A DNA stretch of 36,240 nucleotides from Armatimonadota bacterium. Its GTDB lineage: Bacteria > Armatimonadota > Zipacnadia > Zipacnadales > VGFC01. The translations under genes and the position numbers were made by a program. The first letter of the stretch is position 1, and every line of letters starts with the position of its first letter. The DNA is taken from the NCBI GenBank assembly GCA_016869045.1, contig VGFC01000022.1, forward strand, positions 1 through 36,240, read 5' to 3'. Shown here in pieces: positions 9,520-12,151 of this stretch. The notes beneath the pieces were generated by a model. It had not been told where the DNA came from. It saw only the letters and a list, made by a program, of their open reading frames with translations, and made no database searches.

Positions 9520-9582
9520 GGAATTCGGGGACATGACCCAATTCGCGCCGTTTGCGAATTGGGATCGTGTCCCCGCAATTCC
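9520..9582. repeat. REP-like long imperfect inverted repeat
   Basis: The left arm (9520-9546, starting GGAATTCGGGGACA) and the right arm (9554-9582, ending TGTCCCCGCAATTCC) pair almost throughout with two one-base bulges, leaving a 7-nt loop. The AATT-rich ends contrast with the surrounding GC-rich DNA. It resembles the dispersed palindromes mobilised by REP-associated tyrosine transposases. It lies between the binding-protein stop and the permease start and could attenuate or terminate the transcript there. Confidence 0.75.
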
Positions 9583-9593
9583 ACCTACTCACC

Positions 9594-10922
9594 ATGAACC
9601 ACCGCCTCCTCGCCAACTACGGGATGCTGCTCGTCCTCGTGCTCCTGTGCGGGTACTACAGCTGCGCGACCTGGAACGAGCAATACCCGAGCGGGGGCAA
9701 GGCCGGCCGGCAGTTGGCGGAGGCCCTGGCGCGCACCCACCGCCCGCAGGCCAGCGTGTTCGTCGTCGGCGGGGCGGACGCCGAGGATCAGCAGTTTGTG
9801 ACCGAGGCCCGGCGAGCGCTGGAGGCCGAGGGGATCGAGGTTGTCGCAAGCGCCGGCGCCGCCCCTCCCGCCGTGCTGAACCAGATCGACGGGCTGAAGC
9901 GCACCAGCAGGCTGCCCACGGTATTCGTCGCGAGCGCGCAGGCGGCCCGGTGGGACCTCTGGCAGACGCTGCCCCAGCGCTTCCCCCAACTTGCGAACGC
10001 GAAGGTCGTCTCGCCTCAGAGCTACCGTTTCCCGGACTTCCTGCGCCCGGCCAACCTGCTGGCCATCGCCGACCGCATCGTCGTGATCGCCATCGTCGCC
10101 ATCGGCATGACGATGGTCATCATCACCGGCGGGATCGACCTTTCGGTCGGCAGCCTCATCGCGCTTTCGGCCGTGTTCGCGACCGTGCTGATCCGTAGGT
10201 TCGCCGGCGCGCAATCCGCCAGCGCCGCCGGGATGGTCCTCTGTTGCCTGGCGGCCATTGCGCTCTGCGGAGCCGTCGGCGCCTTCTCCGGAGCGATGGT
10301 GTCGGGCTTTCGCATCCCGCCCTTCATCGTGACTCTCGCCATGATGCTCGTCGCGAGCGGCCTAGCCTTCACTCTCGCCAGCGGCCAGTCCGTCTACCAG
10401 GTTCCCGCCTCCATCGACTGGCTCGGACGCGGCACAAGCCTCTTCGGCCTGCCGAACACGGTCATCCTGATGGCGGCTCTCTACGCGGGTGCGCACCTGT
10501 TGATGACGCGCACGGTCCTGGGCCGCCGCATCTACGCGGTCGGCGGCAACCCCGAGGCCGCGCGCCTGTCCGGCGTGCCCGTCGCTAAGGTCATCCTGTT
10601 CGTGTACACCGCCTGCGGCTGCCTCGCGGGCCTTGGCGGCATCGTCCAGGCCTCGCAGTTGCAGAGCGGCGCGCCGACCTATGGTGTGATGTACGAGCTG
10701 TACGTGATCGCGGCGGTTGTCGTCGGCGGCACCACCCTCGCCGGCGGCACCGGCCGCGTGCTCGGCACGCTCATTGGCGCGTTCATCATCGCGGTCATTC
10801 AGAATGGCATGAACCTTACCGGCGTCGAGAGCTATACGCAGAAGGTCGTCATGGGCCTCGTGATCCTCGGCGCCGTCCTGCTCGACCAGTTGCGCAACCG
10901 CGGCTGGAAGCGCAGCCTGTAG
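9594..10922 (+). CDS. RbsC-family sugar ABC permease with a large insertion after the first membrane helix
   Basis: 442 residues from the ATG at 9594. No strong ribosome binding site is visible; an upstream TTG at 9552 would place the start inside the hairpin. TM1 covers about residues 9-27. The usual family element (YRFPDFLRPANLL, then GMTMVIITGGIDLSVGS) begins only near residue 144. Between them is a soluble insert of about 115 residues with alternating strands and helices (VFVVGGADAEDQQF, EGIEVVASAG, LPTVFVASAQAA). The rest is a normal permease with FRIPPFIVTLAMM, AVGGNPEAARLSG and VVVGGTTLAGGTG. It should import the sugar captured by the preceding lipoprotein. No ATP-binding subunit is encoded in the window. 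Confidence 0.9.
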   Translation: MNHRLLANYGMLLVLVLLCGYYSCATWNEQYPSGGKAGRQLAEALARTHRPQASVFVVGGADAEDQQFVTEARRALEAEGIEVVASAGAAPPAVLNQIDGLKRTSRLPTVFVASAQAARWDLWQTLPQRFPQLANAKVVSPQSYRFPDFLRPANLLAIADRIVVIAIVAIGMTMVIITGGIDLSVGSLIALSAVFATVLIRRFAGAQSASAAGMVLCCLAAIALCGAVGAFSGAMVSGFRIPPFIVTLAMMLVASGLAFTLASGQSVYQVPASIDWLGRGTSLFGLPNTVILMAALYAGAHLLMTRTVLGRRIYAVGGNPEAARLSGVPVAKVILFVYTACGCLAGLGGIVQASQLQSGAPTYGVMYELYVIAAVVVGGTTLAGGTGRVLGTLIGAFIIAVIQNGMNLTGVESYTQKVVMGLVILGAVLLDQLRNRGWKRSL

Positions 10923-10931
10923 CCGTACGAG

Positions 10932-10961
10932 CAATCGGAGGACAGGCATTCCTGTTGATTG
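10932..10961 (+). terminator. Weak hairpin after the permease gene
   Basis: CAATC and GATTG flank an inner ACAGG-CATT-CCTGT stem directly after the permease stop. The stem is interrupted and lacks a clear T-run, so termination here is only a possibility. Confidence 0.3.
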
Positions 10962-11169
10962 CCAGCATGCGTAACGCTCGTTACGATGGGTGGGAATGTG
11001 ACAGAGGAACAGCCTCCGCTGCCCCAAACCACCCACTACATCCTAAATGAGCGCCTTTGGTGCCGTTGATGATGTCAACGGGCATCTCACGCACCCATCG
11101 CGTCTAGGGATGCTCCACGTCTGGAGCGGGCCTCAATGATGAGCAAGCGTTACGCTGGTTTGGCAAACC
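10959..11169. promoter_or_regulatory. Palindrome-rich region before the deacetylase gene (possible regulatory leader or MITE-like element)
   Basis: The 287-bp gap has no supported gene but holds five perfect inverted repeats. They are CGTAAC-GCTC-GTTACG (10970-10985), CCGTTGA-N5-TCAACGG (11063-11081), GCTCCA-CGTC-TGGAGC (11112-11127), AGCGTTACGCT (11146-11156) and GGTTTGGCAAACC (11157-11169). A nested stem also lies at 10988-11034 (GGGTGG/CCACCC enclosing GAGG/CCTC). The word GCGTAACGCT occurs at 10969-10978 and in reverse complement at 11146-11155. TTGCCA lies outside each copy (10959-10964 and, reversed, 11161-11166), giving a terminal-inverted-repeat appearance. Operators for a regulator, a structured leader RNA and a small dead mobile element all fit. 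Confidence 0.5.
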
Positions 11170-11209
11170 ACATTCCTGCCCGTCCGCGCCCCTGTAGGAG
11201 GCACTTGCC

Positions 11210-12151
11210 ATGCGACGTCTCATCGTCACCGTGGATGACGCCGGCGGGCTCATCCAGGACCTCACGCAGTTCCGCCGCGCCCAGAGCTTCTTCGACGGGG
11301 AAGGCGTCCCCGCGACCTACTTCGTGGTGCCGCGCGGCGGCGAGTTGGAGGGGCCGCATGGCCCCGCAGGGGCCATCCGGCCCGACGTATGGGAGATGGA
11401 CCGCCAGCCCGAATGGCTGGCGTTGGCGCACGCAGCCCGAGACCGGGGCGATGACTTCCAGCTCCACGGGCTCGACCACGGAACGTGTGAGTTCGGCCCG
11501 TATCCGGCCTTCGTCCGCGCTCTGAGCCGGGAGGACCCTGAGCCCCTCCTGGTGCAAGACCGTGAGCAGTACGGTCACCTCTGGCGGCGCGACCTCTTCG
11601 TCGAGAGGCTCAAGGCCGCGATCGGCATCTTCGAGCGCGCCTTCGGTCGCCGGCCGGATGCCTTCCGTGGCGGCGCCCTGTCGCAGTCACCCCCGCTGCA
11701 CGAGGCTCTGACCGATGTCGGCATGAGGTATGTCTCGAACAAGGTCGTGGACCCGCGCGGCTGGAAGTATATTCTCGAGGAGTACGACGACCCCGGCGAC
11801 TGGGACCCGGAAGTGCCGCCTGCGCCGTACTGGCTGACGCCAGAGATCATCAACCTCCCGATCATCAGCGAGTACGCCTGGTACCTCACGCCGGAGAAGA
11901 TCGAGCCGCACCTCGCGCTCGCGATCGAGGACCTCGGGCGCGTCTACGACGCCGGGGGCGTGTTCATTCTCGTCTGTCACGTTCAGTGTGTGGGCGCCGA
12001 AGACTCCTACGCGCGCGACCTGCTGCATCGCTTGCTGGCCGCAGCGCGGGACGACTTCGGCGTGACGTTCGGCACCATCCGCGAACTCGTTGCCGACATC
12101 GAGGCCGGCGCCATGCCGGTGATTCAGGGAGACCAAACCCATGGGCATTGA
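11210..12151 (+). CDS. Polysaccharide deacetylase-like (NodB/DUF2334-like) protein
   Basis: 313 residues; GTAGGAGG precedes the ATG. There is no signal peptide, so it acts in the cytoplasm. NodB-type motifs are visible: VTVDDAG (Asp9/Asp10) at the end of strand 1, HGLDH (His86, His90) as the metal-binding His pair, FRGG (about 152-155) as the usual Arg motif, and CHVQC near the C-terminus where the catalytic His of motif 5 is expected. It should remove an acyl group from an N-acylated sugar or related metabolite using a divalent metal. The gene overlaps the aminotransferase gene by 11 bp, so the two are translated together and probably serve one pathway, perhaps amino-sugar or nucleotide-sugar modification. 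Confidence 0.8.
   Translation: MRRLIVTVDDAGGLIQDLTQFRRAQSFFDGEGVPATYFVVPRGGELEGPHGPAGAIRPDVWEMDRQPEWLALAHAARDRGDDFQLHGLDHGTCEFGPYPAFVRALSREDPEPLLVQDREQYGHLWRRDLFVERLKAAIGIFERAFGRRPDAFRGGALSQSPPLHEALTDVGMRYVSNKVVDPRGWKYILEEYDDPGDWDPEVPPAPYWLTPEIINLPIISEYAWYLTPEKIEPHLALAIEDLGRVYDAGGVFILVCHVQCVGAEDSYARDLLHRLLAAARDDFGVTFGTIRELVADIEAGAMPVIQGDQTHGH

Follow-up and report, generated by a model that had tools for sequence, protein, structure and literature searches.

Between the end of an ABC transporter permease-like ORF (position 10922) and the start of the next ORF (11210), the 36,240-nt window from an Armatimonadota genome (the window being the whole stretch of DNA that was analyzed) contains a gap that is rich in dyads. 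Is this gap a pair of operator clusters, a structured RNA leader of the downstream putative deacetylase, or a non-coding element with terminal inverted repeats? All three readings were offered by the initial annotation of this DNA. The last has been borne out: the element exists in 27 copies or fragments, has terminal inverted repeats, is flanked by a 4-bp target-site duplication, and one of its sites has an empty allele. The first two have not been borne out.

The features on which the annotation was built are present. Five perfect dyads (arms of at least 5, loop of at most 8) lie within 10959-11169, as claimed, and all of them are spaced; no palindrome of at least 8 bp without a spacer occurs in the gap. 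Four have arms of at least 6. A 211-bp tile of the window holds 0.57 such dyads on average, and a count of four is reached by 6 of 721 window tiles (the gap region itself being counted among them) and in 1 of 1000 mononucleotide shuffles. The inverted GCGTAACGCT pair with TTGCCA outside each copy was found as described (Table 1).

Table 1. Features of the gap and its surroundings, in window positions
Feature	Position	Strand	Remark
Upstream neighbor, ABC transporter permease-like ORF	9552-10922	+	Named by reading its translation
Left half of split palindrome: GGA mark, GGACAGGCA, loop TTCC	10937-10952	+	GGA plus half 10940-10952
Target-site duplication, left copy TTCC	10949-10952	+	
MITE body, TG...CA ends	10953-11172	+	Copies diverge only beyond these limits
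Left terminal repeat TGTTGATTGCCAGCATGCGTAACGCT	10953-10978	+	Aligns with right end and both IS ends
Outer inverted repeat, GCGTAACGCT and its complement AGCGTTACGC	10969-10978 and 11146-11155		100% identity; TTGCCA / TGGCAA outside the copies
Dyads	10970-10985, 11063-11081, 11112-11127, 11146-11156, 11157-11169		Perfect, with spacer
Dyad CGTAACG-ct-CGTTACG	10970-10985	.	CGTAACG also near both IS ends
Right terminal repeat TGTGGTTTGCCAAACCAGCGTAACGC (as read on - strand)	11147-11172	-	10-bp perfect core pair with left repeat
Target-site duplication, right copy TTCC	11173-11176	+	
Right half of split palindrome, TTCC-TGCCCGTCC	11173-11185	+	One base off the usual TGCCTGTCC
AGGAGG of downstream ORF	11196-11201		Outside the insertion
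Downstream neighbor, putative deacetylase ORF	11210-12151	+	From the ORF list; name given by the initial annotation

The 220-bp element and its insertion sites

The gap is a non-coding MITE of 220 bp. Its dyads fall within the interval first proposed, 10959-11169, but the true limits of the element are slightly wider (Table 1). A stop is present in all six frames. When the body was searched against its own genome (7.87 Mb in 723 contigs), 27 copies or fragments were obtained at E ≤ 0.001; the initial annotation would have given the idea up had no other copies been found. Seven of these places hold a complete element and 20 are broken off at contig ends. Over the aligned part 26 of the 27 are free of mismatches, and the remaining one, a fragment, has a single mismatch. 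Because 34 ends can be read (16 left, 18 right) among 27 places, the insertion sites number 18 to 27, a figure that is bounded only, as the assembly is fragmented. The terminal inverted repeats are imperfect and 26 bp long, and the score with which the left end aligns to the right was reached by 0 of 2000 shuffles. The element is thus short and non-coding, has terminal inverted repeats, occupies many places, is flanked by a target duplication and has ends similar to those of an IS, all of which are characteristic of MITEs.

Two copies lie about 2.3 kb apart on a single contig (L186; G000:C224, 1-172 and 2318-2563), both with the same identical 55-bp flank on one side. This flank may belong to a larger repeat, since similar stretches occur in C148 (L016) and C9 (L165).

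Into what does the element insert? All 34 readable ends are adjoined, with at most one mismatch, by half of a palindrome (GGACAGGC plus 5 nt, or the mirror of this), and the target is a 22-bp REP-like palindrome, GGACAGGCA-NNNN-TGCCTGTCC. Its 4-nt loop is split and duplicated, exactly in five of the seven complete copies and with one base off in the other two. The loop pairs are TTCC/TTCC (two copies), GGAA/GGAA (three), AGAA/GGAA (one) and GGAA/AGAA (one). The initial annotation had reported no target-site duplication, wrongly, as TTCC is repeated just outside the interval that it considered. Formally the duplication could measure 4 to 8 bp, because the element ends and the palindrome centre share TG/CA. 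One fragment (C576), in which the palindrome has a C opposite the point where the element keeps CA, weakly favors 4 bp, but an A-C mismatch at the same pair is also seen in 2 of 73 intact palindromes. The two complete copies with unequal loops (L006 and L007) are reciprocal to each other, which suits an exchange of flanks between two copies, by recombination or misassembly.

The likely partner and its relatives

An IS of 1436 bp (G000:C13:6433-7868, hereafter the C13 IS) has ends like those of the MITE and occupies a palindrome of the same kind, with an imperfect target duplication that reads TTCC on one side and ATCC, one base off, on the other. A search of the own genome for a palindrome half followed by the end motif, at up to two mismatches, returned 39 matches (reversed-pattern control, 3), which by position are 34 MITE ends, three IS ends and two unrelated places with two mismatches each. 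One IS end recurs at C319, where it stands beside another palindrome half and runs into the contig end. When MITE ends were aligned with IS ends, the scores of three of the four pairs were reached by 0 of 2000 shuffles and that of the weakest by 12 of 2000; the left MITE end gave 0 with one C13 IS end and 12 with the other. The interiors have no similarity of note. As only the ends are in common, the MITE did not arise from the C13 IS by simple deletion, and since the ends beat shuffles but the interiors are unlike, the partnership is rated as likely and no higher. CGTAACG, which recurs near both IS ends, is a possible transposase site.

The C13 IS contains one intact ORF of 450 aa. The closest NCBIfam model to its product is IS481 transposase (E 1.8e-37); the NF033577 score of 129.4 bits is below the cut-off of 224 but is still the best of the four matching models. 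Among Pfam domains HTH_28, HTH_23 and rve_3 score above cut-off, and rve reaches 29.8 bits, below its cut-off of 32.6. As in IS481 elements, a single ORF therefore encodes a transposase with HTH and rve core. The IS481 family is characterized by DD(35)E spacing; in the C13 protein the putative catalytic residues, assigned by motif, are D174, D241 and E285, with 43 residues between the last two. The DD(35)E spacing is also given for IS3 in the consulted part of a survey of REP-targeting elements (PMC1525189).

This IS481-like transposase is the likely driver of the MITE. At E ≤ 0.001 a search of the own genome with its sequence returned nothing but the protein itself, and, barring the two unrelated two-mismatch matches, the end motif stands beside a palindrome half on the MITE and the C13 IS alone. 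Both observations speak against a different driver, namely an IS with closer ends that is now lost or unassembled, of which the C13 IS would be a mere cousin with the same target habit. The unlike interiors, the several positions at which the ends differ and the presence of like elements in a genome (CSMAG_1176) in which no C13 transposase relative was found, by a search run without a positive control, all point towards such an IS, which we consider unlikely but a serious contender.

Diverged elements that share the end motif and the kind of target occur in one other named genome, CSMAG_1176. When the named genomes were scanned for exact occurrences of the end motif, 20 matches turned up in 19 stretches; nine are in CSMAG_1176 (eight stretches) and 11 are single matches in other genomes, about the chance expectation that we estimate for 18 fixed bases. 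GGCA plus 4 nt precedes the motif in 8 of the 9 CSMAG_1176 matches, in contrast to 0 of the 11 elsewhere. Two elements with both ends recognized, 399 and 479 bp long, have exact 4-bp duplications, TCCT and GGGA, between GGCA and TGCC. The CSMAG_1176 elements are diverged, with 80 to 97% identity between stretches (aligned parts above 40 bp), and the eight stretches (55,668 bases) contain no intact GGACAGGC palindrome at up to two mismatches.

Closer to the host, the one other genome of the genus and family that was searched, a genus mate, lacks the MITE (0 of 1). In 20 stretches, a part of that genome, there were no orthologous empty sites, only five scattered matches of 72-83% identity, and no palindrome at up to one mismatch. 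Relatives of the C13 transposase occur in at least 3 of 290 other genomes of the phylum among the matches listed (28-29% identity, E ≤ 1e-15), each genome having contributed no more than 5 scored candidates, and at E ≤ 1e-60 the own copy is the only match in the phylum. Peptide patterns confirmed no relative in the named genome collection, from which the own records were perhaps left out. Plasmids gave 172 records with transposase matches, all below 60% identity. Viral contigs gave no transposase relative and two single matches to the end motif, neither of which is preceded by GGCA plus 4 nt.

Choice of target and the proposed mechanism

The target palindrome is abundant. Counted by its exact stem, whatever the loop, it is present in 73 intact copies in the own genome (control 0), a high copy number like that of REPs, and the commonest intact form, GGACAGGCATTCCTGCCTGTCC, has 97 matches within three mismatches (reversed-pattern control 0), one place being counted on both strands. 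The palindrome is also polar: of the 73 distinct intact copies in the fetched stretches, 62 have GGA before the stem on the strand with the pyrimidine loop, 11 have it on the opposite strand, and five have GTA before the stem. With respect to the MITE body, the pyrimidine loop is on the + strand at 11 of the 27 places and the purine loop at 16. With 18 to 27 sites filled and 73 exact-stem palindromes intact, the element occupies roughly 20 to 27% of those found. Of the 46 genomes of the class, 15 contain the stem, the own genome included (control 0 in each), and its prevailing loop differs among the class genomes listed, e.g., AATCCT in G011 and ATCCCT in G018. At G000:C4:60670-61015 (L031, L032, and L135) there are two runs of three palindromes, 39 bp from start to start, which resemble a BIME.

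One occupied site can be compared with its unoccupied form. The end of contig C113 consists of an intact palindrome and a flank that matches the right flank beyond the MITE in C512, without a single difference over 101 bases counted from the duplicated loop. C113 is the empty allele of the occupied C512 site within the same assembly, and a single palindrome was the target. There was no second empty allele among the stretches fetched from the own genome, and a single one could in principle reflect a mixture of strains in the assembly. Palindrome halves at all 34 readable ends would also suit a composite unit, in which half, body and half move together and the palindromes are not a target at all. 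However, loop and orientation vary between copies and yet agree across each copy (exactly in 5 of 7, one base off in 2 of 7), as expected of one split target; moreover, 73 intact palindromes stand without the element, and the assembled empty allele is a single palindrome. We regard a composite unit as very improbable, and an element that includes its palindromes was rejected on loop variation and the empty allele.

We think it very probable that the gap is a non-autonomous DDE-type MITE of 220 bp, seated in the loop of a palindrome and moved in trans, most likely by the C13 transposase. The copies, their ends, the target, the duplication, the one empty allele and the IS with like ends in like targets have been observed directly; the role of the C13 IS as driver and the way in which the palindrome is recognized are what we infer. 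The transposase, supplied in trans and most probably the IS481-like protein of the 1436-bp IS, would recognize the shared ends TGTTGNTTGCC...GCGTAACG and would select a REP-like palindrome. A staggered cut of 4 nt at the palindrome centre would then duplicate the loop and leave half a palindrome on each side of the element.

Such enzymes and their MITEs may choose the hairpin loop by its shape as much as by its sequence. This proposal is possible but tentative, and it draws on two genomes in which unlike loops and partly unlike stems (GGACAGGCA-TTCC-TGCCTGTCC here; GGGCA-GGGA-TGCCC and GGCA-TCCT-TGCC in CSMAG_1176) are in both cases cut around a 4-nt loop. If it is true, the transposase would act on extruded or single-stranded hairpins, and the repeats would be landing sites at which insertion does no harm. 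Because the target choice of this DDE-type system is so narrow, it can be tested whether a palindrome is recognized by its duplex sequence or in the form of an extruded hairpin.

That the gap is instead a functional RNA or an operator cluster controlling the downstream gene is scarcely credible: it folds strongly (z -3.4 as DNA and -3.8 as RNA), presumably on account of its inverted repeats, and has one promoter-like match inside (shuffle mean 0.1), but near-identical copies stand next to many different, unrelated flanks in both orientations relative to the palindrome (11 and 16 of 27), which speaks against operator clusters and a deacetylase leader alike, and a comparison with Rfam gave nothing at E ≤ 1. 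The copies refute such an origin, and a secondary effect on the neighboring gene is possible. The promoter-like match is sigma-70-like, lies within the MITE at 10959-10987 on the strand of the downstream gene and agrees at 9 of 12 positions. The MITE explains a dyad-rich gap that could be taken for a regulatory RNA.

Relation to known mobile DNA

Several ISs are known to target REPs, including IS1397, ISKpn1, and ISPsy8 (IS3 family), IS621, ISPa11, ISPpu9, and ISPpu10 (IS110) and ISRm22 (IS4), and REP-splitting ISs are known from the IS3, IS110, IS4, IS256, and IS5 families (PMC1525189). Each of the five ISPsy8 copies is inserted on the axis of symmetry of a predicted hairpin and is accompanied by a direct repeat of 3 bases (PMC1525189). 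These ISs and the MITE are alike in that a repetitive palindrome is split at a fixed point (PMC1525189). The present system differs from them in that its abundant element, of 220 bp, is non-autonomous, its target duplication measures 4 bp, and its likely partner is nearest to IS481, a family that goes unmentioned in the consulted part of that survey (PMC1525189).

Bacterial MITEs are exemplified by the Correia and RUP elements (PMC2817692). They resemble the present element in being short and non-coding, with terminal inverted repeats, many copies, a target duplication and a transposase presumed to act in trans. In contrast to them, the target here is confined to one dispersed palindrome family, a restriction that is not described for bacterial MITEs in the literature searched, as far as the consulted part of it extends (PMC2817692). 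Likewise, no report of an IS481-type element or MITE with a REP-loop habit was found in the consulted parts of a mostly non-subscription literature (PMC1525189, PMC2817692, PMC3189936, PMC11708052, PMC3686654). What is new is the REP-loop MITE with its likely IS481-like partner, REP-targeting ISs being already known; a non-autonomous element and an IS481-like transposase are thereby added to REP-targeting mobile DNA. The host lineage is probably uncultured, to judge from the fragmented assembly.

REPINs are doublets of REPs and are moved by tyrosine transposases. They and their RAYTs are comparable to the present system in that both involve palindromic repeats with a conserved 5′ mark and small mobile DNA of bacteria (PMC3686654, PMC3189936). 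In the present system, however, the palindrome serves as the target, and it is a unit with DDE-type TG...CA ends that moves. Movement driven by a RAYT seems unlikely: the GGACAGGC target palindrome, at up to three mismatches, is absent from the fetched flanks of 10 Y1 transposase hits in the own genome (L100-L109). REPs as described in the consulted part of PMC3686654 have a 5′ tetranucleotide, GT(A/G)G, next to the palindrome. The palindrome described here has GGA in that place in 62 of 73 copies and GTA in 5 of 73, and GGA is therefore a mark of polarity that resembles that of REPs without being identical to it (PMC3686654). Repeats of the GTAGGGGCG...CGCCC kind, which are nearer to the classical GTAG-type REP than the target palindrome is, occur in the own genome, in the right flank of L026, and inside a CSMAG_1176 element (L111 interior).
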